Assembly (NCBI RefSeq): GCF_016097555.1
Contig: NC_054702.1
Location: 83,480,124 to 83,544,123 of the forward strand
DNA length: 64,000 bases
DNA from: Gigantopelta aegis
Lineage: Eukaryota; Mollusca; Gastropoda; Neomphalida; Peltospiridae
Reading direction: 5' to 3'
The notes below the pieces were generated by a model, which was given only the letters and a program-made list of their open reading frames with translations, ran no database searches and had not been told where the DNA came from. Position numbers and translations under genes: made by a program. Positions 8,015 through 56,354 of this stretch are shown here, piece after piece (position 1 is the first letter of the stretch; each line of letters opens with the position of its first letter).

Positions 8015-11000
8015 GCGTGTGCGTGTGACCCAAGAGAGACTACATAGACACACAATTAACATCTCAAGTTACAATGCTCATAGCAGGAAGGAAAGTGTGC
8101 CAGATAGCAAAATATAGCAGTGTCATCTGAAACTGGGTTTTAGAGAACATTCGCTTTTTCACCAGTATCTAGTTACAGGATTGTATACTTTGCAAAGATC
8201 ACTTGTCAAAATGTAGCTTTGTAATCAGCTCACGAACTCGAATTATATGGGTGGTTTTTTTAAGTATTCATTGACATCCCAATCAATAAATATTAAGGGC
8301 ATGGGCTACTCTTTCTGTTAGCAGCAAGGAATCTTTTATATGCACCATCCCACACAGGATAGCACATACCACACCTTTGATAAACCAGTTGTGGTACACT
8401 GGCTGGAGCGATGTAGTTATACATGTGTAATTAAAAAATTAGCTTTGTTAATTTGACACTGCATGTTTAATATTTAAGGTAACCATATCTCCTAGCTGAG
8501 AGAAAGAGTAGAAAAAACCCATCACATATGCTACTCCCTCAATAACAATAATGGTTTTAAAATACATTTTCCCATAGGAAAGACCTTTAATGTACCAGTT
8601 GTGGTGCGAGCATTGGATGAAGTGGAAAATAACGATTCTATCGAAAAGGATCAATCATGCTACGGTCCATTTTCCATCTGCGCAATTTTTGTTGCAGCAT
8701 GGGTTCAGTTTTTGGTGCAGTTTTTGACGCAGCATGGGTGCAGTTTTTGATGCAGCATGGGTGCAGTTTTTGATGCAGCATGGGTGCAGTTTTTGTTGCA
8801 GCATGGGTTCAGTTTTTGGTGCAGTTTTTGACGCAGCATGGGTGCAGTTTTTGATGCAGCATGGGCGCAGTTTTTGATGCAGCATGGATAGAGTTTTTGA
8901 TGCAGCATGGATAGAGTTTTTGACGCAGCATGGATGCAATTTTTGACACAGCATGGATGCAGTTTTTAATGAAGCATGGATACAGTTTTTGATGCAGCAT
9001 GGATGAAGAATACAGATTCATACTTTGTAAAACAGGTTCATTTAAAATCACGGCCACAGTAATTATTTTTTTGGTTGTCCATATTCCACATTTTGTGCCT
9101 GTTACACATTAAAAACTGCACATGTGAAAAATGACCCTAACAGACAGACAGAAGCTCCACTGGTGAACAGCACCCAGGTGTCATATATTAAGAGAAGAAC
9201 GACTAGAGGACAAGACCACCTAACTATCAGTTTATCCTATCTCACCTGTATCTGATTACAGTGTCACCAACTCTGGCATAATGCCATAGTGTTTCTCAAC
9301 CACCAATAAATAAATGAATGTCCACTGATAAATGTTGCTGATTATTACTTTTTAAAAAATATTCAGATCTTAAAGATTGCTAGCCAGAAACCAGACAACA
9401 TGGACGAGAAACCGTGCAGTATTGTGCATAACACAGAAAAAAACATTATTTTTACTTAAGCTTTACATCTGCAATTGTTTAAGTACGAAATGTAGGCCAT
9501 GTGACTAGCTCTGGCACTCGCCAATTTTAAAAACAATTGGCAAATTTTACTTTAATTTGGTGAAATAATTTCATGTAATAATTAGTATTTTGTTACAAAA
9601 TAACTGGGTTTCTGCCATTTTTAAAGTTTAATAGATAATTTGGTGAACTTTTCTTCTTCTAGCCCAGAGATAGCTCTGATACAATCAGACATTTAAACAG
9701 AGAAATTAATTACTGCCATTTGCATTTGACTTTAAAACAAAATCTTAATAGAATTATGTCAAAATCAAAATCTTCCAGTGATACATTTCAACTACTTTGT
9801 AAATGTTTTTTTAATTTTATTATTATTGTTCTATGACATTTTTTGTTAAAACCACATCAAATACATAATGTTATGTTTAAAAGGTATAGTTAGTGTTTAG
9901 ATATGTCATTATGAAAATTAAAATTGTTTTGTGTTGATATTTAGCTCGTGATGTGATGTATACTACTCAAAAGAATTTAAGGGTCAAAAATTTATAACCA
10001 AATAAGTTTCAGAGTATTAGATTGATGATGTAAACTACACCAAATTTTTTATTTATTGTTCCATATTTACCAAAAACCACAAATAAACGTCACTGTATAC
10101 AAGAAAGTCACATGACATGCTGTCAAAGTTGAAGGTTGTCAAACATGGATTTTACACATTAGAACATTCGTTTAATAGTGTGTGAATCCACCCCTGGCGC
10201 GAATACACTCGACACATCGTTGCCTCATGCTGTTGATCAGACGTCTGAAGAACTCTTGGGGAATGGCCTGCCACTCTGCCATAAGAAGTTGACCCAGATC
10301 ATGAAGGTTGGCCGGAGGGGCATGGTTATTCCGAACTCTCCTGCCTAATTCGTCCCAGGCGTGCTCTATTGGGGCCAAGTCAGGCGAATATGCTGGCCAA
10401 TCCATCCTGGCGATACCTTGTTGTCTAAGAAAGTCCGTTACCACCCTGGCGCGGTGGGGTCTGGCATTGTCATCCTGCAGAACTGCCCCGCCGCCAATCT
10501 GCTGAAGGCCTGGGAGAACCAACGGCCGGATAATCTCATTCAGATAGCGGATTCCATTCAGACTGCCATCCACCACATAGAGGGGGGTCCTGTGGTGGAT
10601 AGAGATGCCGCCCCACAATATGATGCTGCCACCACTGAAACGGTGACGTTGTCTAACGTTAACGTCAGCGAAGCGCTCCCCAGGACGTCTGTAGGCACGA
10701 ACCCGACCATCGTTGAACTGGAGACTAAACCTGGACTCATCAGTGAACATCACTCGACCCCACTGAACACGTTGCCACCGCAGATGAAGCATGCACCAGT
10801 GACTTCTGGCCGTTCTGTGACGTGGTAGGAGTGGTGGTCGAACAGCTCTCAGACGATTGCGTATGGTTTGATCAGACACTCGAGTTCCAGTCGCAGTCCG
10901 CAGATTGTCACGTAATCGGCGTGCAGTGGTTGTGCGTTGACGTAGAGCCATATTGGTGATGTAGCGGTCCTCTCTATTTGTAGTGCTTCGGGGTCTTCCC

Positions 11001-11976
11001 GAACGTGGACGATTTCGAACAGAATTCGTTGCTTGGTACCGTTGCCACAGTCGGCCAACGACACTCTGACTGACACCAAGTCTCAGAGCAACATTTCTTT
11101 GCGTATTGCCATCCTGAAGCCAAGCAATAGCCCTTCCTCGATCTTCGATAGTCAGTTGAAGTCGTACCATTGTCGAATTTGGAGTGTGCACTGTACACGA
11201 ACGCAAGCTCCAATTATACGGAAATTCAGCATTGGGAACATGGAATACACGTGCAAAGCGTGCAAATGAAGCGCTTTGTGAAAAAGCAAGTTATGGGCAC
11301 TTAGCAGACCTTTCGCTTTCGCCCTGATTTACGTGCAAATGTAAGCATGTTTTCGCCATTAGAACTAGTCGACTGTCAATGACAGTGGATTTTAATTCAT
11401 TTATGGGTTGCTTAGACCCACTTTCGTCAAAATGGAACAATACCATGCGTGACATTATGGTCTAGCTAATATAATTGACATTCAGAAAATAATGTCGAAA
11501 ATATCGTCTGACCCTTAAATTCTTTTGAGTAGTATACATTGTTACAATCAACATTTTATAATGGTCTAAAGTACATCATTTAACATAATGTAAAGTAACA
11601 TCCTTAAACATTATAGATTAATTATTATATTGTTTCAAAAGTGTATAAACATTGTCATAAGGGAGCATATATATATACTATGTAATAAAGAGTTTTAGGG
11701 CATAATAACTGACCTCTGAATTGACTAATAACTTTAGGATCACAGTAGCAGTTAACCTACACACACCATAGCAACATAACATCTTTGGTATTAATGTTGC
11801 TCCAATAGTTAACATACATAGCAACATACCACAAGGGACTGAAGCCCCACACATACATACTTAACCCACTGAATACGGTTGCTCTGTATGGAAGTGTAAA
11901 ACAAGACGGATAGTAGGGCTAGAAAAATCACCTTTCTCTGCCAGCCGATGTAGGAGTGGCTCAAACAATTTAACGA
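2789..11976 (-). CDS. C-terminal part of an unrecognised small membrane protein gene (4 exons, 5' incomplete)
   Basis: Four short exons on the - strand, 11932-11976, 9246-9294, 6424-6497 and 2789-2901 (stop TAG at 2789-2791), each have AG before and, except the last, GT after. The donors are GTGATT, GTGAGA and GTAATC. The phases fit at all three junctions, giving about 94 residues without a stop. The pieces read VKLFEPLLHRLAEK, then TLWHYARVGDTVIRY, then DAVDKAGNILGGYVGNIMSS, then SISSLTGLSVLGLPPVLLAN. The third piece has a G-x-x-GG-x-x-G pattern, and it and the fourth look like packed membrane helices. A Tc1 element lies in the first intron. I do not recognise the family; a small mitochondrial or endomembrane protein is possible. 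These exons could be chance matches, though the phase agreement argues otherwise. Confidence 0.42.
3640..4215 (-). repeat. Diverged tandem of a roughly 170-bp molluscan repeat ending in (GGACAGAC)n
   Basis: About three units with 'tttcctaagttcaagggcca', 'caaacttgatc' and 'atttcagctcgatatctt' in the same order. It ends in 'cggacagacggacagacg'. The same family is present in opposite orientation at 60300-60960. Confidence 0.75.
4608..4915 (-). mobile_element. SINE type B
   Basis: Tail 'tgttttgtttaactacacc' at left, tRNA-like head ('ccacttggctacgtcccac') at right. Moderately diverged. Confidence 0.8.
5195..5425 (+). mobile_element. Old SINE type B copy
   Basis: Body pieces 'catggtatgtgctgtcctg' and 'aaaagatcccttgctacta' are clear; the head and tail are degraded. 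Confidence 0.6.
5527..5826 (+). mobile_element. SINE type B
   Basis: Head 'ggatttagctcaggcggttg', body and tail 'gtcattaaacaaaacaaac' are all recognisable. Confidence 0.8.
5937..6122 (+). mobile_element. Mosaic SINE: 'ggcctcggtggcgtcgtgg' head joined to a type A tail
   Basis: The tRNA-like head (box B 'gggttcggatcccag') is followed after about 85 bases by the type A end ('ccttaaccatatatctgacg', 'gcgtcgttaaataaaac'). The middle body is missing. Confidence 0.8.
6424..6497 (-). CDS. Exon encoding the glycine-zipper helix DAVDKAGNILGGYVGNIMSS
   Basis: 74 bases, acceptor AGCCCTGCAG and donor CAG/GTAATC. The reading frame chosen by phase is the only one without stops. Small residues spaced three or four apart suggest a packed membrane helix. 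Confidence 0.45.
7104..7679. mobile_element. Inverted-repeat element with 'gtttctgcca' ends
   Basis: The left end GTTTCTGCCAGAGGGTA is mirrored at the right (reverse: GCTTTCTGCCAGAAAG). A SINE was inserted later at 7195-7511. A second copy is at 47061-47300. Confidence 0.55.
7195..7511 (-). mobile_element. Full-length SINE, type A
   Basis: Reverse orientation, with a 14-bp target duplication TTTTTTTCGATGGA at 7181-7194 and 7512-7525. It is inserted inside an older inverted-repeat element (7104-7679). Confidence 0.9.
7981..8028. repeat. (GT)n microsatellite
   Basis: About 24 GT units with GC interruptions at the right end. Confidence 0.95.
8296..8413 (-). mobile_element. SINE body fragment
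   Basis: Contains 'gggctactctttctgttag', 'tatatgcaccatccca' and 'gtggtacactggctgg'; both ends are missing. Confidence 0.7.
8690..9003. repeat. 24-bp minisatellite
   Basis: About 12 copies of a unit like 'gtgcagtttttgatgcagca' + tggg. The period is a multiple of three, so on the - strand more than one frame stays open and gives spurious eight-residue repeat proteins. Confidence 0.9.
9246..9294 (-). CDS. Exon encoding TLWHYARVGDTVIRY
   Basis: 49 bases, with a strong donor CAG/GTGAGA. The acceptor TTGAG follows a T-rich stretch. It ends with two bases (AG) that join the T of the next exon to give Ser. Confidence 0.42.
9961..9986 (+). repeat. Left terminal inverted repeat of the Tc1-like element
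   Basis: 26 bp, an exact reverse complement of the right end; preceded by TA. Identity stops after GGGTCA, so the repeat is 26 bp. Confidence 0.93.
10172..11170 (-). CDS. Tc1-like transposase (DD34E)
   Basis: 332 residues from the methionine at 11170; the frame is open 12 codons further up to 11206, but the product from MVRLQL has the usual length for the family. Residues about 5-50 form a first helix-turn-helix. A GRPR motif (58-61) follows, then a second helix-turn-helix to about 120. The catalytic triad is D144 (MFTDESRFSL), D234 (LQDDNARPH) and E269 (DLAPIEHAWDE), with exactly 34 residues between the last two. WGGIS at 186-190 is the usual strand before the second Asp. The protein binds the terminal repeats and does cut-and-paste transposition in the nucleus. 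I see no stop or frameshift, so it may be functional. Confidence 0.93.
   Translation of the reverse strand: MVRLQLTIEDRGRAIAWLQDGNTQRNVALRLGVSQSVVGRLWQRYQATNSVRNRPRSGRPRSTTNREDRYITNMALRQRTTTARRLRDNLRTATGTRVSDQTIRNRLRAVRPPLLPRHRTARSHWCMLHLRWQRVQWGRVMFTDESRFSLQFNDGRVRAYRRPGERFADVNVRQRHRFSGGSIILWGGISIHHRTPLYVVDGSLNGIRYLNEIIRPLVLPGLQQIGGGAVLQDDNARPHRARVVTDFLRQQGIARMDWPAYSPDLAPIEHAWDELGRRVRNNHAPPANLHDLGQLLMAEWQAIPQEFFRRLINSMRQRCVECIRARGGFTHY
11509..11534 (-). repeat. Right terminal inverted repeat of the Tc1-like element
   Basis: Exact reverse complement of 9961-9986; followed by TA. Confidence 0.93.
11932..11976 (-). CDS. Exon encoding VKLFEPLLHRLAEK of the unrecognised - strand gene
   Basis: 45 bases between a CTGTATCCAG acceptor and a GTGATT donor. 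It starts with two bases completing a codon and ends with one spare G. That G plus AA from the next exon gives Glu. Confidence 0.42.
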
Positions 11977-17204: not shown

Positions 17205-17537
17205 CAGAAGGAAGGAAGGAAATGTTTTATCTAATGACACACTCAACACATTTTATTTATGGTTATATGGCGTCAGACATGTGGTTAAGGACCACACAGA
17301 TATTGAGAGAGGAAGTCCGCTGTCACCACTTCATGAGCTATTCTTTTTGATTAGCAGCAAGGGATGTTTTATATGCTCCATCCCACAGACAGGATAGTAC
17401 ATACCACGGCCTTTGTTTCACCAGTTGTGGAGCACTGGCTGGAACGAGAAATAGCCCAATGGGTCCACCGACGGGGATCGATCCTAGACCAACCGCACAT
17501 CAAGCGAACACTTTACCACTAGGCTACATCCCGCCCC
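17205..17537 (-). mobile_element. Full-length SINE, type A
   Basis: Reverse orientation, GGAAGGAAGGAAATG tail end at left and tRNA-like head at right. Target duplication CCACTTGTG at 17196-17204 and 17538-17546. Confidence 0.9.
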
Positions 17538-17677
17538 CCACTTGTGTGGATGCGAAAGCAGATGCAGACATTTTTTGTGTGTGTGTCCATTTATGCGGTT
17601 GCCAGTTCAGTTTTGTATCCACTTGTGTGTTTTCATACATTTTTCAGTACAAACTTCCACATTTACCACTAAATGAT

Positions 17678-17792
17678 CTGGGCCCCATTTTACGAAGCAA
17701 TCTTAGCCCTAAGATCACCTTATGTGCATACAGTAGATATGCACTAATAAGGTGATCTTAATGCTAAGGTTGCTTTGTGGATTGGGGCCCAG
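17678..17792. repeat. 115-bp foldback (hairpin) element
   Basis: Ends CTGGGCCCC and GGGGCCCAG. The arms carry 'aagatcaccttatgtgcat' and its near mirror 'atgcactaataaggtgatctt', separated by about 8 bases. Confidence 0.85.
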
Positions 17793-41222: not shown

Positions 41223-41271
41223 ATGAAAATTGCTGTTTTAGGATGTGGTCTCATGGGTGTAAGAATAGCAG
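41223..41271 (+). CDS. Exon 1 of the dehydrogenase-RING gene: start codon and glycine-rich loop
   Basis: Sixteen codons plus one base encode the first beta strand (KIAVLG) and the dinucleotide-binding GxGxxG loop. It ends with donor GTATAT, phase 1. Its length and content match the usual first exon of this fold. Confidence 0.85.
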
Positions 41272-44200
41272 GTATATTTCTAACATTTTAATATTAATGG
41301 TGGCAAATTTTGTTGTGCTGTAAGGATTAATAATAATTATCAATCTTTCTTATAATAAGTGTGTAAAGCAGGACTTTCCTTTGGCACTGTCACTAACCCT
41401 AACCCTAACTCTATTTATGAACAGTATTTATAATGTTCTTTATACGTGACAGTGCCAAAGGAAAGTCCTGCCCATTTTTTTTAGTCCCTCAAAATGTATC
41501 TTCTATACTACTACCATCGATGTCCCAAACTGTGTTCACCTAACAACAACAAAATTAATACAATATTTACGGAAATACTATTCTACATGTTTCAGCTATT
41601 ATACGTGAAACAAAATAGATTGCATCAGTTAACGTGAAAAATCAACAATCATACAATCATACAATGTGGACGTAAAAGTACTATTTAAAACAAATCCATT
41701 CTAGTAAACAAAAGTGAATCACCGTCTAGTAAGCAGGAAAGAGTGCAATGTTTCTAACAGCATTCAGGTGCATGCATTTGCAAAAAGTATCGTATCACAC
41801 GTGCGGTTCTTCATTTTCCATTTTTAAGGTCACTACATGAAAAATACATGTTTGTTAACTATGCACAGTTGACAAACACTTCGTTGAATTTTTTTTTTAA
41901 ATGGAACAATTCAATTTGCCAACACTTGATGTCAATACTGATAGGCATTACGTTCATATCAGTGAATAGTTGGTAAAATATAATTTTTTTAATGAATTGA
42001 TTCATAATTAACACAATTTATACACTCAAAATTATTTACAATTGTTATGAATGGACTGAATATTATTCACTACAACAGAGGCACAAAAATGTAGCGGGGA
42101 GGGACATAGCTCGGTGGTAAATCGTTCACTTGATGCATGGTCGGTCTGGGATCGATCCCTGTCGGTGGGCCCATTGGGCTATTTCTCGCTCCAGCCAGTG
42201 CACCACGACTGGCATACCTTTTGCAGATCAAATACAATAATTAAAAACAAATTCTAACAACATGAGGCATAAAAATTAAATGATTTGGCCTTGTTGATCA
42301 GGCATGTGTGAGGTCATGTGACACACACCAAATGTTATTTCATCTTCCTCCATTTTAAGTCAGTTTCTACAAGCCATGTGGACCCGATATCGGTAATTTT
42401 AAGGAATAAACAAAAAAGACTTCTAAAGTAAACTTAATGGTCTTAGGGGTTTATAAAGTTTTCTATTTAGATACTTACTTGTCTGAACTTTATTGTTAAT
42501 GAAAATGTTCCTGAACTGTGAAGAGAAATCTCACAAATGAACAACATGCAGACAATAAACAAGAAAACAAACTGAATGGAGTTGCAAGCTTAACGCAGTT
42601 AGGGACATTGACAATACTACTAACACAACAGGAAATGGCTACTATGCATGTTCAATGTTGTCACAGAAGTCCTCATGTCAGCAGGCTAAATTAGCTGAAG
42701 ATTCGCCTTGATCAATTTAACTTTGTCCTGGCATTAAACTTAAGGTGACATCAGTGTCGCCTTGTAAACGCAGTGACCACTTTCCTTGTACACAGTTGCG
42801 GATGAATGGTGAATTTGAGGAATACCTATTCATAGATAATAATTAAGTGTTAAATATCTGAACGTTCGAAGTGACACTGGCGGCACAAAATCATGCTTGT
42901 CTAGCTCAGACACTAAAAGTAAAATGCACTACTGACTGTTGAAGCATATAAATTTTAGTAACTTAATTTATTTTGTGTACTAGTATATCCAATTTTTTTG
43001 TTTAATTTTGAAATTAATTTTCTTACTGAAACTTATTCATAAGCAACTTATTTCGTACTGTCACTTGATCTTGATGAGTAGGTCAGTTCGCTTCAGTTAA
43101 AGAGTTTCTTATTAGTGCCATTTTATTAATGCTCCATTGCTTGTTGTTTGTTCTGTTATTTATAAGTAAATTATAAATACTAGTGGTTCATTTTGTTCTG
43201 ATTGTCACCTATCATAAGAACAAAGTGTGCCTTATTACTTTAGGCCTATTACAATTTTGTTATGATATTAAATTACATTTACACTATCTGTAACTGTGTA
43301 TGACAATAAAAATCAGCCAGCAGAAAAAGGGATTGGTCTGCTTTTTAGACGAAGACAAACAAAATGAACAGAGTATTATTATCCCACATTAAGGAGTCCG
43401 TTTTAGAAATGTTGAAGTTTTTATTAAAATAGTCTTTTTAGTCTTTGAGCAAGTTATTTGTACACTGACCGCTTCATCAAAATTTAAGCTTTGGGTCGCG
43501 ACTCTATTATTAGAATGATAGACAAACATATTTCCTATATTCGTTTCGATGTTAATTGTTTTCGTTTTAATTATGGGAATTACATTTTCATGAAATACAC
43601 ATTTGTTTGGAGACAAGTTTCACTCATTTTCTCATAATGAATAGATTAAACATACAAATAAAGATCGATATTATTACAGTACTATTTTATTTTTATTATT
43701 AGTTAATAAAAAAATAAAAAGCCTCTCTCTTGTTAAAAACTTGGCACTCTCAAAGTTCGAGAGAAAAGTGACTTCACCATATAATTTGGACTTTGCATGT
43801 AGCAGTAATGTTTACTTTTTGTTACTTTAGTAAAAAAATGTGTAAAATGTTTCCACATAATCACTTCATAGTAAGAATCTGTGTTCTTTTTTTTAACCCC
43901 CTCGCCAAAAATCATTTAATTTTTAACTAAATTAATTAGACCAGTCTTGACTGACTCATTTATTGTTTTATTTTTCATGTATATTACGTATGCATTAAAG
44001 TAGTATTCAATACAATGCTAGAATGCAACTGAAATAATTTTTTCTTCAAATATATATTTTTGACATTACTTACTGAAACTTATTCATAAGCAACTTATTT
44101 CGTACTGTCACTTGATCTTGATGAGTAGGCCAGTTCGCTTCAGTTAAAGAGTTTCTTATTAGTGCCATTTTATTAATGCTACATTGCTTGTTGTTTGTTC

Positions 44201-47200
44201 TGTTATTTATAAGTAAATTAAAAATACTAGTTGTTCATTTTGTTCTGATTGTCACCTCTCATAGATTGTCCCTATTTTATGTTTTTGTAGACTTTGTCGG
44301 TTTTATTTTTATCTGAAAATTCAAATTATCAGCATGTTTGTTTCGTTTTAAAAGCATATCCTGGCATTGCCTTTTTCCTCCCCTGGCATAATGTTTGTAC
44401 ACTTGTGAATATGTTGATAATTGTGTCATTATTAAAGGGAAGTAACTCAAACATCAGCCTTATGCGTTGGAAAGATGCATACCTGGACCACCAACACACA
44501 TTGATACTTTAAGAAACGAAAAACGCATAATTTTAGAGTTAATAAAAAAATCATGATTATTCCTGCTAACTGGGGGCAGCCATTTTCTTTTGTTTTCGCT
44601 GCTTCCGGTATTCTAGTTTGTGGCGAAGTGATGTCAGCTTCTTCCAACTCCTGTATGCACAGTGTAAACAAACACAGTAATTTACGACAAGGCGCTTCGC
44701 TTTCATCAACCTGAATTGTAAAACAGCATAAATGACTTGATAATACATGTATACTAAACTATTTAACTTTATTTTTCAATTTGCATTAATAGAACGAAAT
44801 AGGGTTTTAGTATTTTTCTCTCTTAAAAAATCCAAAGAAAAAATGCATACTAGTATTAGGCCTATTGGTAGACTACGTTGGAACAAAAACGACCACTCAC
44901 GATACCCAAGTGATAATGTTCTTTTCTTTGGGACTACGTAATTACCATTTTAGGAATGGCAGGTATACCCCAATACCCTGTGATGTGAAAAAAATACCGC
45001 CTGTATGTAATTTTGTGTCTAGATGGCGGTAATTAATAGCTTGTCTACCTATCAAATATACACCTGCCAATCAGGAATCACAGGTGGAGGCCACTGAAAG
45101 TACCGGTACAGATTAATTAACTAAGAAAACTCTCCGTTTATCATTTCAGTATGTAGGTTATCACATGGACAAAACATGAGACAGTTATTTCGACACTTTG
45201 ACAATGGTGGTTTATTTTGGATTGTAAAATAATATATATTTATTGCTGGCTACTGGGATGGATATTATTACAGAACATTGAGCAAAAATTAGGTACGTTT
45301 GTTTCTTCTGTTCTAAGACTAATTCCTGACATGGCACATTAAATATTATGTCACCACTGTCCCGCCAGGGGGCGTATTCACTGGGATGGTACAAAATAGC
45401 TGCAGCCATTATGTATAATAGTCGTCATATTTCATTTTAAAAATGGTAAACATGTGACGGCTATTACATATAATGGCCATTTTGCTCTATCCCACTGAAT
45501 TTATCTGGTGAGTAGGTTGTTACATAACACTTAATGCATCACATCAGGAATTAGTCGTAGAACTAAAGAAACAAACGTAGCGGTTTGTTGATTTTTGCGG
45601 ATAGTGAAACAGGCATTCATCGCAATGTTCTGTAATAATATCCATCTCAGTAAGTGAACAATAAATATTTATTATGCAAAATAAACTGGCTACAAAACAA
45701 ATCAACGATGTACCATATTTTGTCTATGCATTGAGCTGCTCTGTATTTGAGAAACCTACATACTGAATTGATAAACTGACTGTTTACTTAATTGATCTAT
45801 TCTTTTAGGTGTCTCCACCTATGATTCCTAATTAGCAGGTGTATATTTGTTAGATTACCAGACTAAGCAATTGCCACCATCTAAACTCAAACGAATATGT
45901 AGGGCCTACCGGTATGATTGACATCAAATGGTATTGTGATGCATGTTTTACCAATCTGATGTGTCATGTCATGTCCTAATATTAGTCTTTGTTTAATAGT
46001 ATATGGAGAAAATTTTGGCACATATTTTATTAGCATAGGACCTGTGTCACCATATTGCTGAGGAAAATTAAAACGTTCTCCAAGAAATAACCTGTCACCC
46101 CTAAAATGGTAATGAACATTATCAAGTGCCAGGGTTTATTATACTGTAAATTTATTATATAATACTGTTGATTAAAGGCGCAGACCCTCGTTTTAGATGG
46201 TGAAAATGGACACTAAGTTGTTTTTTTTTAATGTACAAACCTGCAATACACATTTGGATATGGTTATAAAAGAGAGAAGCAAAGGTCTGCAATCTTCAGT
46301 CAGGGAAAGATCGTCTTAAAATAACTGGAGCTTGTCTTCATAACCAAAACTTCTCAGATGAACGTCCATTTGTAGAATTAAGAAACATGAATTTTTGGGT
46401 ATTGCAAAAACCTGGATGACCAGAACCACTACAGTTGTACAAAAATTAATATTCTAAATAATAAAATGTAAGTACTTGTAATTTAAATTATCAAAAATGG
46501 CTTTTATAGTGAAAACTGTGCCGTAGTGTTTAAAAACTAGGGTCTGTCCCTTTAAGTAGACTGTCTCATCTAAAATCACAGAATAGAGCAATTATGTAGT
46601 CCCAAAGAAAAGAAAATTATTACTTTGTTATCGTGGGTGGTAATTTTTGCTCGAACGTACCAATAGGCCTAATAGTATGCATTTTTTCTTTGTTTTCTTT
46701 TTAGAGAGAAAAATTGGGTAATGTTTGTAATTTCACGATGGATTCAATGTAAAGTGTTTTGACTGTGTATTTTAAACAAACATTCTGTTTTTATTTTAGG
46801 TGAACTTGCATATCATGGACACAGAGTTAAAATATTTGACAGCAATGGGAATGCTTTGGATAAAGTATTTGAACGACTGCAAGATGATAAAAGGATGTTG
46901 CATGAAGAAGGCCTGATACCACAGGAAAAATTTATTGTATGATGTTAATATTCATGTTCAATAACTTAATTTAGATAATTCATAAATAACTACTGTAAAA
47001 TACAGTATTTTATTAATGTGGATTTTATGTTTTGCACAAAAGAAAATGTTCCATGTCAGGGTTTCTGCCAAAGGGTTAAACGGGTATGGTGCCATACCGA
47101 AATTGTTTTGCAATTATTTTTTTTAAGTCAACCTTTTGACAAAATTTATTACTCTTATAATTACTGTATGATTTTCTTAACCCTAAACTTAACCCATTTT

Positions 47201-50200
47201 CTTTCTAGGGAAGGCACCCCATACCCCTTGTTGACTGGTTGACTGTGGTTGAATCCAGTTCCACAGCACCATACCCAAACATTTCTTTCTGTCAGAAACA
47301 CTGCATGTTTATGGAACATTTGTTTTTTATATTCTTGAGTGATCGACAAAGACAAAATGGATTTGAGCTCATTTGTTAATCCCACTAGTAAAGAAAGGGC
47401 ACACTGATACCACCTATTCAAGTAAGAAGAGGCCAAATAATCTGTGGTTGAAAGCATTCTTCAGTGTCACTCATTGTCATTAAAGGATCAACTTAATTTG
47501 TTTTAGTTCCATGGCTAACCTTTAAAACCAATTTAATTAAATCTCTTTGGTATTAAATATCATATTTGTGGTATTATTTTTTTTTTTTAAACAAACACAC
47601 ACATATGCATGTGTGCACATAAAATTAATTTTAAAAAAAACAAAAAAACTTCCTCCTAAATCATCCTTATAACCTCACCTAATAATGGGGGGGGGGTTGA
47701 ACTGACAAATATTTGGAAGCAGACTGACTTAAATGGGGTGAACTGGTTTCAGGGTGAAACATCAGATAGCCCTCATTTTACACGACTAGTATTAAATGTA
47801 TGATTAAGCATCAATGTATAGTTATTTTATGATTTTTCTTGCTGTGGTATGTTCCATTGATTTGATTTTCTGAATGGAACATTTGTAGAACTTGTGTGAA
47901 TCAACTATTGATATACATGTAGATAGTGCTTATTATATTCCTATTTTCTGTTATAGGGCCAAGTGTATTGTATGAGTCGCCTGGAGGAAACTGTTCGGGA
48001 CGCTGATTTTATATTTGAAGTTATTATTGAGAAACTTGATGCTAAGAAGGATATTTTTGAAAGTAAGTTCCAGTACTTGAGGACAGATTTCTATTTTGAA
48101 ACATTACTAGTTTTTTCTTTATTCATTCATTTCAACTTATTTTCGTGCTCATATCCAATTACGGTTCAAGCATGCTATCCTGGGCACACCCCTTAGCTAT
48201 CTGAGTTGTCTGTTCAGGACATTGGGTTAGTTGTTAATTGTTAGTGGTTAGTGAGAGAGAAAAGGGTGTAGTGGCCTTACACCTACCCACTGAGTCATTA
48301 AAACTCTGGGTGGGAGTCGGTAGCGAGCTGCGAACCCTGTACCTACCAGCTTTATGTCAGATGGCTTAACCATGACGCCACTGAGGCCAGTTCTAGTTTC
48401 TTCTAAATTTCCTGTTAATGCTTGTGTAGAAATCTGTTCACTAACTTGTTTGATTTTAGTATAGATAAGCATCCTGCTATTTACAAAAATACTTATTTTT
48501 CTCATATACTCTGTATTAATAGGTCTGCCTAAAGATTTGCCTTTTAGTGTTATTACTGTTTCTTTAAGCATTTCATTATCTGTAAATGGTATTTTGCTCT
48601 CCTGCACCAGTAACATTTAAGCTTAATAATGTGAACAGTGTTATGTCTACTTGTATCGTTTATGCATTAGTAGGTGTAGATGACTGTAGTCAATTTCAGG
48701 TTGTGGATCATGAAAATAAACTTTTATATTTAATCACTGGTTATTTCATCCCTATCTGCTCATCCAGAATTCTATTCTGACATATATTCTGTTATCCATC
48801 ATGACGTCAAACTTAACAGCTGTCTTTAGAAATTCAGTTTGACTTTCTAAAATGGGACCGGCCTCGGTGGCGTCGTGGCAGGCCATCGGTCTACAGGCTG
48901 GTAGGTACTGGGTTCGGATCCCAGTCGAGGCATGGGATTTTTAATCCAGATACCGACTCCAAACCCTGAGTGAGTGCTCCGCAAGGCTCAATGGGTAGGT
49001 GTAAACCACTTGCACCGACCAGTGATCCATAACTGGTTCACCAAAGGCCATGGTTTGTGCTATCCTGCCTGTGGGAAGCGCAAATAAAAGATCCCTTGCT
49101 GCCTGTCATAAAAAGAGTAGCCTATGTGGCGACAGCGGGTTTCCTCTAAAAAAAAGTGTCAGAATGACCATATGTTTGACGTCCAATAGCCGATGATAAG
49201 ATAAAAAAATCAATGTGCTCTAGCGGCGTCGTTAAATAAAACAAACTTTACTTTTTCTAAAATGGCTAACACAGACCTGCTTACTCTTGCTGATTTTTGT
49301 TAATTATCATGGACAAATTGACAGAATCTGAATAATCAGAACAAGCAGAGGAACTATAAATGTGCTGTCTTACTCTCCCGTAATGTGAGAAACATATTTA
49401 GGCTCTGAACATGCATGCAGCGATTTCCATTTGTATGTGCCATTTTTTAAATGAGGCATTGTTCAATGTTTTATGCATTCTATGACCATGTCTGACCATC
49501 CAAAAAGTATCTTCACACAGTCTGTAGTCTGGCGGCAGGAACGACTATGCTTATTACTAATAGGTGTCTCAAATTAATAATAACTTGTGTTCTGATTTCT
49601 GATGACCAACGGTAAGGGTAAACAGATCTACAAACAATAGTTATAGGATATTAAACAAGCTTCCGTTTCGTATCTTGTTTATGTCCCGAGTGAAATAATG
49701 TTCAATTGTCACGAGCTTTAGCAAGTGAGAATGAAAATTATTTCATGAGTGACATAAACATGATATAAAATCTGAATTTATATCACTCAATTCATTTGGT
49801 TGACGTTTCTGTTAGGTTGTAGTCTGTATAAAATCTGAATTTATATCACTCAATTCATTTGGTTGACGTTTCTGTTAGGTTGTAGTCTGCCAATTGATGA
49901 CGTCATCGTGTGACTTCGAATTGTTACATCCCACTTGGCATTCTAGTGGGACGTATCACTTTGATATGTACCAAGATATTTTTAACGATATGGAAAATAA
50001 TAAAACATTGCATCTAATCATGAAAATAATTTTTAAGAACATAAATATTAATTTAGTGCTCATTAAAGTTTATAATGTTTTATGTAATCTTTCTTCAATG
50101 TGTTAAGGTTTCTAATGCCACAGCTCAGTAGACTAGTTTCTGTTTCTAGGAGTATCACACTTGTGCAAAGCTGATGCAGTGATCGCATCCAACACGATGG

Positions 50201-53200
50201 GTCTCAGCATTGACGAACTTACTGAGAGAACGGTTGGCAAAGAGGTAAGACATTGGTTAAATTTGGCTTAGTATGTTTCGTTGTTCATGGTAATATTCAC
50301 AAACATGCATGTGCACACACACATATGTGCACACACACAGAGAGTGAAACTTCATTATTGCAACCACATGTCGGTCTGACTATAATTGGCTTTAACGGTG
50401 TGATAGTCCTAATGCATTACCAAGGTTAATAAATAGAGGATATTTCATGTTTTTTGTCAACTATGATTTATATCTCATTGAGTGAAATTTGCAATCATAT
50501 CTTACGAGTCGCGCTTGCATGTGATATGATTGCAAACTTCACATGAAATATCCTCTATTTATTATATAACGTTTGGCAATTTACCTTTATTTTTCAAAAT
50601 GCCAGCAGCAAAATAGTTCCAGCTGTCTTACAGTGATGATAACACTTTCTACAGTGATAATAACACATTTTAGAGTGAAATAGTGAAATTTTATTTCACT
50701 GATATTTTAAAGGTAGGGTCAATTCAAACAAGAGCCTTATTTGTTGGAAAGATGCATACCTGGACCACCAACACATACCGACACTTTAGCAAATAAAAAA
50801 CACGTAATTTTAGAGTTAATGAAAAAACATGATTATTCCTGCTAACTGGGGGCAGCCATTTTGTTTTGTTTTTGTGACGTCCGGTGGGATAGCTTGGGGC
50901 AAAGTGACGTCAGCTCCTGACCATCTTCTGTATGTACAGTGTAAACAAAAGCAGTAATTTTCAACAAGGCGTTTCTCTTTGATCAACCTGACTTGTAAAA
51001 CAGCATAAATGACGTAATAATATAATAAACTATTTAACTAAATATATTTCAAGTTGCATTTACGGAACAAAATGGGGTTATAGTATTTTTTTCTGTTAAA
51101 TAATCCAAAGAAAAAATGTACACTATTAGGCCTATTGATATGCTACGTTGGAGCAAAAACGACAACCCATGATACCCAAGTGATAATTTTCTTTTCTTTG
51201 GGACTACGTAATTGGTCAGTTCTGTGGTTTTAGATGGAAAAGTCTACTTAATCAATAGTTGTATATAACTATTTAAAGTAATAAACCATGTCCATTACCA
51301 TTTTAGGGGAGACTGGTAATATTCCACAACACTGGTATGTATTTTTGTGTCTAGACAGCGTCAATTGGCTCATCAATTGGCTTGTCTGGTTACCAATCAA
51401 ATACACACCTGCCAATCAGGAATCACAGGTAGAAGCAACCAACAGCATAGACCAATTAACTAAGAAAACACTCCATGTATCATTTCAGTACGTAGGTTAA
51501 TGCATGGACAAAACATTGTTAATTATTTCAACTTGTTGTGTAGCCACTTTGACAATGGTATTTTATTTTGTATTGAAAAATAATATATATATATAGTGCT
51601 GGATATACTTATTGCTGGCTTACTGGGATGTGTATTATTACAGAACATTGCAATGTATGACTATTTATCATCCCGCAAAAACCAGGTAGATTGTGTTTCT
51701 CTAGTTCTAAGGCTCATTCCTGACGTTATGCGTTAAGTATTACGTAACCACCAGCTCGCCAGAGGGCTTACTCACTGAGATGGTACAAAATGGCTGCGCC
51801 CGTTATATATAATAGCCGTCACATTTAACCGTTTTATTAATTAACTATACAATTATACTTGTTGATATTAAGCAATAATGTGCATTATATATCGTTGAAT
51901 ATGCATACCAGGCCAAATGCCTTAATTGTCCGTTCCTTTAAGATATGTCACTAAATGTTATATAATAATGGTAATTATTGCTGGAACACCACCATCTTGG
52001 GGATTATAGGTGTCCACTGCCACCAAAATAACACAGATCCATGTGCGACTCCCGGGTCCTGTGACTGGATGCAGCTAATCTGTATACTGCCTGTTAAAGG
52101 GATTATCCTCAGTTTGATGCATTGTAAAATGTTTGCAGCTAATCAAATCTTTTAATGACTAAAATTATATATTTTTTCTTGTTTTGTAAATATCAGTGTC
52201 TGTACATTCAGTGTGTTTTTGATTGTCTTAATATAGTAGCCCAAACTGGATTTGATCTCTAAATAATTTTGTATGTACAAAAAAATATATATCGGAAAAT
52301 AAAATGCAGTTTGACCGAGTACAAACATTAGGATGATCAAAAACACATTTACTATACAGCCACTAATATTTTATTAAAATATATATATATATATGTATAA
52401 TTTCAGTCATTAAAAAGTCTCTGTTGGTCAGCAACATGTTGACCATTGCAGCAAACTTGAGATAAGATAAGATAGGTAGTGCAGTGGTTGTATTTTAAGG
52501 TAAAACTTTAATCAAAATGCTCATTAGGTCTACCATTACTGGTTGTAATCTGTAATAGCAAGATAAAACATTCCATTCTTAAAAATATTTGTAAAACTTT
52601 CTAATATAATTCATGATGAAAAATTGTGATCAATTTGTAACATAAATGTATTTGTAATTTTCTTTCAATTTCATTAACATTTAATTTATAATAAGCAAAC
52701 CACAGTAATAAAATATGTTATAAATTTTCATGACTATTATCTCCCTTGTACTGAATATATTTGCAGAGAACACTGGGACTTCGCTTTTTGTTTCCTGTTT
52801 ACTACATCCCTGAGCTGGAGATAACTCCTGGACCTAACACCTCTGCTATCACAATAGAAAAAGGTATTTATATGCAGTTTGATGTAAACTCAAACCAAAC
52901 CCTCATTAAATAAAAATAAAAATTCATTATCCCATTTATTGACTTTGTTTGTAAAATATGGAAGAATAACCTTTGTTTATTTTTAATGTAATTTTTTACA
53001 GATTTAATCCATTGAGTTTGTTTGTTACAGTGAGAGTGTTGCTTGAAAAAATGGGGAAAACCCTGTTTTTCCGATCAGGAGGAAATCCACTGATACTGTC
53101 AGAAGAACAAAGAGAGGCAAGGAAATGTGGTAGGTGTCGGTAGCTGTCATATTCCTCCAACGTGATGTGTTTTTTACAGGTCAATTGATGTGTATACGGA

Positions 53201-56200
53201 CATGTTAGTGAGTTAATTTCATTGAAGACGCCTGTAACTCGGATTTAACCGAAAAGTACACAGACATGTGTTATTAGGAAAGTAATATTTCAAAGGAAGG
53301 CCAATTGCATTAATTTCGTGTCTCATTTTTGTCTGCCCACTGTCACTCACATTAATTTAGGGATGTATTAAGTTCAGTATGTACAGTAATTCACTACTTG
53401 TGTTTTATAATATGTAAAATATCAACAAATAGCTTTGACATATACCGATTAACATAGAATCGGTTGACATTTTACATATTGAAAAACACTTGTGACAAAT
53501 CTTTTATTTATTTTATAGAAGCAATAAAAAATAATGATTTTTTAACTTTCTAATTAATATATATATTTTTTTAATAGATATGTAATATACCACAGTCTGT
53601 CATACAGCAAGAAAGTCTGAATTCAGTATGTGTAGACAATATATATACATAAATATGTTTTTAGTATATATATTTTGTATATACAGCAACAAAACTAAAG
53701 GTATTTCAGTGTTAAATAAATGTTTATTTTACAGTTACATTCCTGAATGGACATATATCTTATGTTGTCGGGCAACATAATTGGGAGTCTTACCTAATAC
53801 TGGAATTGTATTCCCTGACATGTTAGATATTCTCTATTGTTTCAGATTTCTGTGGTTTTCAATGTCTCATATATCAAAATGTATTTGGAGTTACGCCCCT
53901 TGACTAGTAAAATTTCCAAGCTTCATTTTCATTACATAACAGATTTCAACAAAATCAAAAGACTCTGCATACAACTTTGGACCTATATTAAATTCAGGAA
54001 ATTAAATTTTTAATAGATAACTTGTAAAACATGATGAATTGGAAATTTACACGCTCAGGACAGGTTTATTTAGCAGATTACAGTTTACAGTTTTAAAGGG
54101 ACACACCCTAGTTCGGCTAGTTGTTAACCATTACGGCGTTGTTTTTCGCTATTAAACCCATTTTTCCCCAAATAAAATTGCACTTTACTTACCGTTTATT
54201 ATTTAGAATATACATTTCTATTCACCTGAAGTGTTTTTTGGTAATCCTGGTAATCCTTGTGTTTGTAATACCACAAAATGCATTTTTCGTATTTCATAAA
54301 ATGGCACGGGCCTCTGAGAAAAAACTGTTGAGCAGACAAGGTCTAATCTATTTTTAGAGGGGATATTTCCATTTCAATGTCACAGACGTTGGTATACCAT
54401 GTGACCGTTATCATTTTGGTTCGGTTTGTTTTCTCTTGCACGGTTCGCGCAATCAACATCTGATTTGTTGTCGTTTGCTTGTTGTTCATTTGTGAGATTT
54501 TTCTTCACAGTTCGTGAACATTTTCAGTAACAATAAAGTTCAGACAAGTAAGTGTCTCAATACAAAATGTTACAAACCCTTAAAACCAATAATTTTGCTA
54601 CGTCTTACGATATCTGGAGAGGGGATACAACCAGGACAGAACAGTTGGAACATGTCCAGGAGAGGTGAAAGGAACGCACCCCCAAGTCTGTTAAATTTGT
54701 CGTGACGTAGGCATTGTTGTGCTTCGAGCGACATCTACCGGTGACATCAGAATACTAACTTTCAAAATTATTTCAAGCAATTAGGACATGGGGATTCCCA
54801 TGGTATTTATCGATATAAAACCTGCTTTTTCACTCCATTTTATAAAAACGTGATCTAAGTGTGTTACAGGTTTGTAGATTAACCAAATTATAATTTATTT
54901 TCGCTGGATGGAACTAGGGTGTGCGGCTTTAAGGAAGGTTTTTGATAGATATGTGTGTATCTAAAATTGATTAGTTTGAAGATTAATAGGAAGTTTTGCT
55001 TTAATATTTATGTTGATATTCATTACTGAATTTATGATAAATACATTCTGTAATTTAAAAAATTCAAATAGTCTGTTTGCCATGGCACTAAACCTTACAC
55101 TTTGATACCCACAATTGTTCTTTATGGTTTTTGCACCTTTGGAAAATGCTGATTGAGGATCTGAGGGGTGCAAACTTGGCACCCTTGAGCTTTACGAAAT
55201 ATTTACTTGGCTGTCAAACAAAGAACTCTGATACTTTATCACTCATGTGCATCATACTCCATCAGCACCTTCCAAAGATGCAAAAACCACAAAGAACAAT
55301 TGTGGGTACCGAACTGCAAAGTTCAGCCAAAAATAAAGATTTTACAAACAGACTAAAGTTAAATGACCAAACTATTCACCACATGTACAATTTTACAAAC
55401 AGACTAAAGTTAAATGACCAAACTATTCACCACATGTACAATTTTGCACAATTTTTATTAAATATTTGATGAACATGTTTATTCTTAATCTACATTCTTT
55501 CTTCTTCTTCTTCTTTTTTTGCATGTAGCTCGTCTTGAACAGATAAAACTGGGTGCATATGAAAAATGTGTTCCTGCCCTTTCCCACCGTGGCAACATAA
55601 CTCCAAAGGCACAAGAAGAGTGTGAGTTAAAGATAATTGGCTTAATTAGGGAAATATTATACATATTAAACTACATGGGCTTCATATGTCGTAGTATAAA
55701 ACAGTGTTACAGACAAAGTAATTATACTGTATTACATAACTGTCATCTGTAGCAATTAAAATAATTTTATATCATAAAAGGCAGTTAAGTATGCTTTTAA
55801 CCACTATTATTCGATTCAAAATGGTTATTTTTTAGTGTGATGTTCCTGATGTCTTACACTGTAATAAATTGTTTGATTAGATGGAACATTTTGTTTTCAA
55901 AATCTTGATTTGTGATATTTCTAGTCAGTTGAAAATTGATTAGCAATTACTGTTTAATGTTTTAAAATGGTGTAGCGATCTCTGAATCTTGCATAGCGAA
56001 TCGCAATGCGATACTGAACTAAATGTTCCCTGTTAGATACTTTTGTTGTTAGTATGTTTCTCCTGAATGTATACACAAGTAGTAGATGTACATGAAGTGA
56101 ATTAATCATTAAATAAACCTTTGCATCACTGTTCCGTTTCTAAATATTTTTCATTTCCTGTTTCAGCTCTTGTAGCCAGTGACTTGGACCGAGACTGTGC

Positions 56201-56354
56201 GATCTGCATGGATCGACTGCGCGACTGCTTGATGCAGCCCTGTCACCACATGGTCACATGTTACGAGTGTTCCAAAATGCTCTTCAACAGGAAAGATGGA
56301 TGTCCAATATGCCGCAAAAATATCAAAGAACTCATAAAAGTGTATCATTCCTGA
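41223..56354 (+). CDS. 3-hydroxyacyl-CoA dehydrogenase-like NAD-binding domain fused to a C-terminal RING finger (8 exons)
   Basis: Exons are 41223-41271, 46800-46936, 47957-48062, 50150-50244, 52767-52863, 53031-53129, 55529-55621 and 56167-56354. All introns are GT-AG, and the 864 coding bases give 287 residues. The start is fixed by an in-frame TAA nine bases upstream, and -3 is A. Residues 1-30 are a Rossmann beta-alpha-beta unit: GCGLMG at 7-12 and the acidic strand end FD at 29-30. Then come ADFIFEVIIEKLDAKKDIFE (78-97), ASNT (110-113) and FPVYYIPELEI (138-148), all in the order of the 3HCDH/lambda-crystallin family. In active enzymes a His and a Glu 12 residues later are catalytic; here the His position is R135, the nearby Asn is F138, and the Glu is kept (E147). 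The second dehydrogenase domain is absent. A linker (about 179-235) leads to a RING with ligands C236, C239, C251, H253, C257, C260, C271 and C274. Inferred role: a ubiquitin ligase with a nucleotide-sensing or dimerising module. No name is assigned. Confidence 0.88.
41368..41471. repeat. 104-bp foldback element with perfect 26-bp arms
   Basis: 41368-41393 and 41446-41471 are exact reverse complements (starting GCAGGACTTTCCTTTGGCAC). The loop begins with three CTAACC-type telomere-like repeats. It lies about 100 bases into intron 1. Confidence 0.88.
42095..42218 (+). mobile_element. SINE type A, head and first part of body only
   Basis: Clear box A and box B ('ggtctgggatcgatccc'), then the body stops at 'cacgactggcatacc'. 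Located in intron 1 of the dehydrogenase-RING gene. Confidence 0.85.
43022..43216 (+). repeat. 195-bp direct repeat, left copy
   Basis: Nearly identical to 44069-44263 (starts CTTACTGAAACTTATTC, ends with TCATA). The pair encloses 852 bases. Confidence 0.9.
44069..44263 (+). repeat. 195-bp direct repeat, right copy
   Basis: Same length as the left copy with only a few substitutions. Confidence 0.9.
44432..45440 (+). repeat. Copy of the TTAA-flanked 1.2-kb element, left arm of an inverted repeat
   Basis: It shares long stretches with 50707-51830 (e.g. 'gaaagatgcatacctggacc', 'attattcctgctaactgggg'). Its end is mirrored from 45454 onward. Confidence 0.75.
45454..46735 (-). repeat. Inverted copy of the same element, right arm
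   Basis: It reads in reverse the segments 'aatcacaggtggaggcc', 'acattgagcaaaaattag'-type sequence and 'tctttgggactacgtaat'. It is interrupted by the TTAA miniature at 46172-46555 and lacks the outer end. Exon 2 begins just 65 bases after it. Confidence 0.65.
46172..46555. mobile_element. TTAA-flanked miniature transposon (piggyBac-type)
   Basis: TTAA at 46172-46175 and 46552-46555. The ends read TTAAAGGCGCAGACCCTCG and, in reverse, TTAAAGGGACAGACCCTAG. Non-coding. It sits inside the inverted copy of the 44.4-kb repeat, within intron 1. Confidence 0.75.
46800..46936 (+). CDS. Exon 2: helix A, second strand and acidic cofactor-selecting residue
   Basis: The acceptor is TTATTTTAG. The exon continues the Rossmann unit (GELAYHGHRVKIFD), with D30 at the end of strand 2. 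That position normally contacts the adenosine ribose and favours NAD over NADP. Donor GTATGA, phase 0. Confidence 0.85.
47061..47300. mobile_element. Second copy of the 'gtttctgcca' inverted-repeat element
   Basis: Starts GTTTCTGCCAAAGGG and ends with TGTCAGAAAC; 'tatggtgccata' near the left is mirrored by 'caccataccc' at right. In intron 2. Confidence 0.55.
47957..48062 (+). CDS. Exon 3: ADFIFEVIIE strand of the NAD-binding domain
   Basis: It encodes residues 63-97, including the strand-helix segment 'ADFIFEVIIEKLDAKKDIF', a hallmark of the 3HCDH N-terminal domain, where E83 is the conserved acid. The donor is a consensus GTAAGT, phase 1. Reading past this donor runs into a SINE in the intron. 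Confidence 0.88.
48122..48398 (-). mobile_element. SINE type C
   Basis: Reverse copy of a third family with head 'ggcctcagtggcgtcatgg' and tail 'aaaataagttgaaatgaatg'. It starts about 60 bases after exon 3 of the dehydrogenase-RING gene. Confidence 0.8.
48856..49253 (+). mobile_element. Mosaic SINE: 'ggcctcggtggcgtcgtgg' head with a type B tail
   Basis: About 398 bp, with the same head as 5937, a middle part found in type A and B copies ('aaaagatcccttgctgcc') and the type B tail ('gcggcgtcgttaaataaaac'). Lies in intron 3. Confidence 0.82.
49670..49763. repeat. Foldback element
   Basis: 'atcttgtttatgtcccgag' is mirrored by 'catgagtgacataaacatgat'. A related hairpin is at 30555-30655. Confidence 0.6.
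49764..49889. repeat. 63-bp exact tandem duplication
   Basis: 'tataaaatctgaatttatat' starts at 49764 and 49827; the two 63-base units appear identical. Confidence 0.95.
50150..50244 (+). CDS. Exon 4: ASNT segment
   Basis: It encodes residues 98-129. 'AVIASNTMGLSIDEL' matches the family segment that usually reads SNTS or SSTS. Methionine replaces the Ser that normally helps bind substrate (M114). Donor GTAAGA, phase 0. Confidence 0.87.
50430..50706. repeat. Foldback element with adjoining 'agtgataacac' repeats
   Basis: 'aatagaggatatttcatg' and 'catgaaatatcctctattta' form the outer arms, and 'gcaatcatatc' / 'gatatgattgc' the inner. A reverse-oriented relative is at 61080-61425. Confidence 0.75.
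50707..51941. mobile_element. TTAA-flanked 1.2-kb element, reference copy
   Basis: TTAA at 50707-50710 and 51938-51941. The ends are TTAAAGGTAGGGTCAATT and, in reverse, TTAAAGGAACGGACAATT. It matches 44432-45440 over about a kilobase. Non-coding; in intron 4. Confidence 0.7.
52767..52863 (+). CDS. Exon 5: segment carrying the altered active-site motif
   Basis: It encodes residues 130-161. The motif GLRFLFPVYYIPELEI aligns with the family motif HxxNPxxxxxLVE. R135 replaces the catalytic His and F138 the Asn, while E147 is retained. The YYIP stretch resembles the lambda-crystallin (L-gulonate dehydrogenase) branch. Phase 1. Confidence 0.86.
53031..53129 (+). CDS. Exon 6: end of the NAD-binding domain
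   Basis: It encodes 'VRVLLEKMGKTLFFRSGGNP', the last helix and strand of the Rossmann domain, then the start of the linker. In ordinary family members the next segment is a GFxxNR motif leading into the C-terminal domain; it is not present. The acceptor at 53029-53030 gives the right phase; an AG at 53000-53001 does not. Confidence 0.84.
54093..54932. mobile_element. TTAA-flanked 840-bp miniature transposon
   Basis: TTAA at 54093-54096 and 54929-54932. The ends are TTAAAGGGACACACCCTAGTT and, in reverse, TTAAAGCCGCACACCCTAGTT. Related at the ends to 46172-46555. No transposase. Located in intron 6. Confidence 0.75.
55106..55308. repeat. 203-bp inverted-repeat element in intron 6
   Basis: Arms of about 48 bases: 'acccacaattgttctttatgg' region and its mirror ending 'aagaacaattgtgggta'. 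It ends about 220 bases before exon 7. Confidence 0.75.
55339..55441. repeat. 51-bp tandem duplication
   Basis: 'attttacaaacagactaaag' at 55339 and 55390, about 90 bases before exon 7. Confidence 0.93.
55529..55621 (+). CDS. Exon 7: linker between dehydrogenase and RING
   Basis: It encodes 'ARLEQIKLGAYEKCVPALSH' and a short polar stretch, with no recognised domain. A T-rich tract precedes the acceptor. The donor GTGAGT after base 55621 is the one that keeps the frame into the RING exon; an overlapping GT two bases upstream does not. Confidence 0.78.
56167..56354 (+). CDS. Exon 8: C-terminal RING finger
   Basis: It encodes residues 226-287. The spacing C-x2-C-x11-C-x-H-x3-C-x2-C-x10-C-x2-C is a C3HC4 RING of the IAP/MUL1/neuralized type. 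It is followed by a short hydrophobic tail (IKELIKVYHS) at the extreme C-terminus, as in RINGs that dimerise through their tail. The stop is TGA at 56352-56354. Confidence 0.9.

Follow-up and report, generated by a model that had tools for sequence, protein, structure and literature searches.

Enzymes of the 3-hydroxyacyl-CoA dehydrogenase group, such as HADH, Hbd and FadB2, combine a Rossmann domain (3HCDH_N) with a helical C-terminal domain (3HCDH) that is normally responsible for dimerisation and bounds the active-site cleft on one side. In the ubiquitin ligases cIAP1/2, BIRC7, MDM2/MDM4 and MUL1, a C3HC4-type RING stands at the extreme C-terminus, and both the linchpin Arg after the last zinc-binding Cys and the hydrophobic residue between the first two Cys matter for activation of the ubiquitin-loaded E2 (E2~Ub). 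A gene of the peltospirid vent snail Gigantopelta aegis, located at 41223-56354 on the forward strand of a 64,000-nucleotide stretch of contig NC_054702.1 (the window, to which all coordinates refer), encodes a fusion of these two types of domain. Like HADH, Hbd and FadB2, its product has a Rossmann fold with a GxGxxG loop, an Asp after strand 2 and Glu147; unlike them, it carries a RING in place of the helical domain, and the catalytic Ser and His are replaced throughout its family. With the ligases it shares the C-terminal RING, the linchpin Arg, an aromatic residue third from the end and a basic residue two positions before that, and it differs from them in having a dehydrogenase head as the partner domain. 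The role proposed below for the head also resembles that of the CtBP co-repressors, in which a dehydrogenase fold serves as a regulatory NAD(H) sensor, although CtBP belongs to another dehydrogenase family, keeps its catalytic residues and is not known to carry a RING.

An earlier sequence-only reading of the window had proposed that eight exons join in phase into a 287-residue protein and are no chance neighbours, and this has held. All introns are GT-AG, the coding sequence comprises 864 bases, and the product is identical to database protein P0001, "3-hydroxybutyryl-CoA dehydrogenase-like [Gigantopelta aegis]". When homologues were compared with the raw window by tblastn, the Lingula protein matched all 8 exons (E 6e-24 to 8e-4) and the Nematostella protein matched 6 of the 8; given the database identity and these matches, the gene is real. 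Among the 120 listed homologues, 29 are known solely from the source 'lgn', where both domains lie on contigs of 996-2341 bases, and because the Gigantopelta gene spans 15 kb these contigs are best explained, from their length, as spliced transcripts. Wrong splicing of two neighbouring genes, which the homologous fusions, including those on the 'lgn' contigs, and the identical database model contradict, is thus a vanishingly improbable account and was rejected, and the fusion itself is practically beyond doubt.

The domain content agrees with the same reading, which had described a 3HCDH_N domain fused to a C-terminal IAP/MUL1-type RING without the usual dehydrogenase C-terminal domain. Pfam recognises 3HCDH_N (E 4e-39) and a C3HC4 RING (E 2.6e-14; zf-C3HC4_3 at 53.2 bits against a cut-off of 27), and comparison with solved folds, well tested for residues 1-185 only, extends the Rossmann fold over residues 1-183. 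The C-terminal helical domain (PF00725) gives no Pfam match in the product at E up to 1, and no exon encoding it was found in the window, where the best tblastn hit of seven canonical C-terminal domains has an E of 0.16. Likewise, the 17 Pfam families matching the product at E up to 1 include no BIR and no other IAP, MDM2 or MUL1 domain. A special tie to lambda-crystallin was unsupported: with the family profile, human CRYL1 (E 9.6e-24) comes slightly behind FHMPC dehydrogenase (7.1e-27) and HADH (4.1e-25), and the fold comparison leaves the three tied within about 1 Z. Among the rows listed, the NCBIfam scan of three family members returned only matches below curated cut-offs.

Conserved and lost residues

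The family alignment comprises 95 of 128 proteins; of the 33 dropped, 5 lie outside the family and the other 28 are family rows that are short, truncated, oversized, odd-ended or nearly duplicate. A further 37 canonical PF00725-bearing relatives from the searches were added for comparison. Published structures place the catalytic residues of A2HBD at Ser117, His136 and Glu148, with the motif HXFXPXXXMXLXE (PMC11476959), and the catalytic centre of human HADH at Ser137 and His158 (PMC6333283). Catalytic Ser and His are both present in 37/37 canonical proteins and in 0/95 family members, their positions being occupied by Leu, Met or Ile and by Arg, respectively, in every case, whereas the catalytic Glu (E147) is kept in 95/95 and 37/37. 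Conversely, R135, E145 and R176 are family-specific (each 95/95 against 0/37), and the Arg motif recurs in 30 of 31 family sequences outside the alignment, the remaining one, Strigamia P0101, being without that segment. Invariant Arg and Glu residues so close to the former catalytic centre suggest that a new site, for a ligand or a partner, lies there. An active beta-oxidation enzyme was rejected, as catalytic Ser and His are gone and the C-terminal domain is missing, and the dehydrogenase head is almost certainly a pseudoenzyme.

The cofactor site followed a different course. GxGxxG is found in 84 of the 85 members with letters at that place, the one without it being an octopus model whose start is odd, and E83 and K92 are present in 95/95; position 30 is Asp in 86/95 family members against 34/37 canonical proteins. 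Taken together, the residue counts indicate that the catalytic residues were lost before the family radiated and that the cofactor loop was retained, and because this loop is conserved the head is, on balance, predicted to bind a dinucleotide.

The RING retains all eight C3HC4 zinc ligands, P272 and the linchpin R275 in 95/95 members, and position 238, between the first two Cys, is Ile or Val in 95/95. Position 285, followed by one or two residues, is Tyr or Phe in 93/95 and His in 2/95, while position 283 is Lys or Arg in 86/95; the aromatic third from the end reappears in 21 of 22 RING-bearing rows outside the alignment. The isolated RING has MDM4, cIAP1, MUL1, cIAP2, MDM2 and MGRN1 as its nearest sequence neighbours among solved structures, in line with the earlier class assignment. 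A single-sequence model of it was poor (helical, with a mean pLDDT, the predicted local distance difference test score, of 70.7) and was not used. According to PMC6349121, the donor ubiquitin on one cIAP1 subunit is contacted by Arg614 and Phe616 from the tail of its partner subunit, which is why dimerisation is required there, and the paper notes the same of dimeric RINGs whose tail contains Phe or Tyr. Judged from these residues, the family is likely to be an active E3 ubiquitin ligase, and its RING probably dimerises.

Distribution and age of the family

The homologue search found 143 proteins, of which 120 are listed: all 120 carry the dehydrogenase head (PF02737), 112 also the RING (PF13920), and none PF00725, so that the same architecture does occur in other molluscs and invertebrates, and its absence from related genomes is contradicted. 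The eight RING-less entries are short, cut within the RING, or end in apparent missed- or skipped-exon sequence. Models of Pomacea (P0080), Paralvinella (P0078) and Bulinus (P0090) end before the RING, the last exon apparently having been missed, and thereby resemble plain dehydrogenase fragments. Named hosts, assigned to phyla from general knowledge, include molluscs (gastropods, bivalves, cephalopods and a chiton), annelids, nemerteans, a brachiopod, a flatworm and rotifers, a priapulid, arthropods (myriapods, mites, ticks, a spider and a sea spider), hemichordates, echinoderms, and cnidarians (corals and a sea anemone).

A search with a cnidarian profile, which scored the 7998 candidates sharing most words, shows a sharp gap between the weakest family member, at E 8.5e-51, and the first of the proteins that follow, most of which carry PF00725, at 1.6e-25; only one family fragment, the 178-residue P0157 (E 4.8e-11), falls below it. 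A fast maximum-likelihood analysis of 72 rows, in which four canonical proteins served as a distant outgroup, separates cnidarians, deuterostomes, ecdysozoans and lophotrochozoans much as the species do, with fast-evolving rotifers placed beside gastropods contrary to the species tree; support is from the Shimodaira-Hasegawa-like approximate likelihood ratio test (SH-aLRT) only, 25 of 69 inner branches are open and the outgroup branches are long. The pattern points to a single origin before the cnidarian-bilaterian split followed by mostly vertical descent. An invention confined to molluscs was rejected, given homologues in arthropods, echinoderms and corals and a tree spanning cnidarians to lophotrochozoans. 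No chordate or insect member is named among the rows that the searches listed (120 of 143 matches for the homologue search, and rows drawn from 7998 scored candidates for the cnidarian profile), many of which are nameless; since listing is limited in this way, loss of the family in chordates and insects is at most weakly suggested.

Beyond what the sequence-only reading had proposed, the head is thus recognised as a very probable pseudoenzyme within a widespread family whose proteins databases already contain, frequently named as dehydrogenases, with some UniRef rows called "RING-type domain-containing protein". In one of them, the 478-residue P0069 of the millipede Chamberlinius hualienensis, a PX domain (PF00787) precedes the dehydrogenase-RING unit, which may be a real fusion or one made by the gene model.

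Possible function and rival explanations

The explanation proposed here, to which a probability of roughly 55% is given, is an animal family of RING E3 ligases in which a dead, cofactor-binding 3-hydroxyacyl-CoA dehydrogenase head controls ubiquitination by a RING dimer. Since the dehydrogenase's C-terminal dimerisation domain is gone and a tail-type, probably dimerising RING stands in its place, the simplest picture would be two cofactor domains held together by the RING. The head, which should be incapable of the usual chemistry, would bind NAD(H) or a related nucleotide without substrate turnover, and what the RING dimer ubiquitinates would depend either on this state or on a target that docks at the remodelled pocket. 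The earlier idea of a cofactor- or metabolite-responsive ligase is plausible and is strengthened by the finding that the catalytic residues are lost without exception while the adjacent cofactor loop is conserved. What is inferred here, namely that the protein dimerises, acts as a ligase, binds NAD(H) and is gated or recruits a target, differs in likelihood: gating of the ligase by a head-bound ligand is a tentative element, and an ancient animal ligase gated directly by redox or acyl-CoA state, its head reading NAD+/NADH or a nucleotide-like ligand and switching the RING dimer, is a slightly more doubtful one.

Several observations weigh against this explanation. D30 is replaced by Ser in 8/95 members (P0028, P0030, P0031, P0035, P0036, P0039, P0040 and P0049, the five named ones being the bivalves Mya, Ruditapes, Dreissena, Mercenaria and Mactra) and by Gln in one rotifer row, so a strict NAD preference is not universal, and the change to Ser may shift or drop it. 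The conserved GxGxxG may reflect fold maintenance only, and with the triad Glu (E147) still in place there is a small chance that some chemistry persists. In the RING half, Ridgeia P0064 has a different tail without the aromatic third from the end, and the region corresponding to the pre-RING dimer helix of IAP-type proteins is of low confidence here (pLDDT below 50 at 217-229).

Of the alternatives, the one to be taken most seriously, though less likely than the proposed explanation, is that the dead head acts only as a protein-recognition surface, capturing for example beta-oxidation enzymes, and that any bound cofactor is structural. The invariant R135, E145 and R176, on or after the old active-site segment, would suit an interface as well as a ligand pocket, and columns conserved in at least 90% of members are denser in residues 116-178 (20/63) than in the cofactor half (14/115); the near-invariance of GxGxxG, E83 and K92, however, is more than a pure surface seems to need. 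Much less probable is a non-canonical enzyme in which the head performs redox chemistry through Arg135 and Glu147 and the RING controls only turnover or dimerisation: the kept fold and Glu147 speak for it, as does the dehydrogenase name on many database entries, but both catalytic Ser and His are lost in every aligned member and the domain bordering the active-site cleft is absent. About as improbable is a RING serving as a dimer scaffold without E3 activity. Its position at the former place of the dimerisation domain would allow dimerisation alone to explain its retention, yet a pure scaffold need not keep the residues for E2~Ub activation, and R275, I/V238 and the tail aromatic are kept.

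If the proposed control of a RING dimer by a cofactor-binding head is correct, a conserved ubiquitin ligase has escaped notice because the names assigned automatically often derive from its dead half, and metabolic cofactors would be linked directly to protein ubiquitination inside one small polypeptide. It would also suggest a domain swap, in which a dimerising RING replaced the dehydrogenase dimerisation domain, and would make the D30-to-Ser bivalves natural variants with a built-in test of cofactor binding. Family entries called '3-hydroxybutyryl-CoA dehydrogenase' in invertebrates would then need new names, since they may be taken for beta-oxidation enzymes when pathways are reconstructed. 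The sequences themselves are not new; searches of openly licensed PMC articles found no description of the fusion, and hence none of a RING E3 with such a head. By term search, the main text of a human E3-ome paper (PMC13061254) mentions no dehydrogenase, Rossmann or NAD, and the Gigantopelta genome paper (PMC7895826) contains no dehydrogenase terms and one ubiquitin passage.

Exon layout and other elements of the window

All eight exons lie on the forward strand. Exon 1 (41223..41271) supplies the ATG start, the first beta strand and the GxGxxG cofactor loop (residues 1-16), and the Rossmann domain continues through exon 2 (46800..46936; to residue 62), with D30 ending strand 2, exon 3 (47957..48062; residues 63-97), with the invariant E83 and K92 and with E/D87, and exon 4 (50150..50244; to residue 129), where M114 marks the lost catalytic Ser. 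Exon 5 (52767..52863; residues 130-161) encodes the former active-site motif, with R135 replacing the catalytic His, together with E145 and E147. The end of the Rossmann domain, R176 and the start of the linker helix fall in exon 6 (53031..53129; to residue 194), and the remainder of this helix (186-206) and a low-confidence loop with the invariant P210 in exon 7 (55529..55621; to residue 225). Exon 8 (56167..56354) carries the C3HC4 RING (residues 233-280), the aromatic C-terminal tail and the stop codon.

The introns and the surrounding DNA contain several repeats. A dispersed element of about 800 bases is present as two direct copies, at 44444-45243 in intron 1 and 50721-51594 in intron 4, which are 84-91% identical in pieces, with an inverted piece near 46552-46662. 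Upstream of exon 4, intron 3 holds a perfect 63-base tandem duplication (49764-49889). Rfam gives no match in the window at the gathering threshold. On the reverse strand at 10172-11290, a 372-residue open frame with DDE_3 above the cut-off and HTH_Tnp_Tc3_2 just below it represents a Tc1/mariner-like transposase. A near-identical frame fragment around RNSPMGPPTGIDPR occurs at 7090-7569 and 17351-17755 on the forward strand and at 42070-42240 on the reverse strand, and is a dispersed short repeat, probably resembling a short interspersed nuclear element (SINE).
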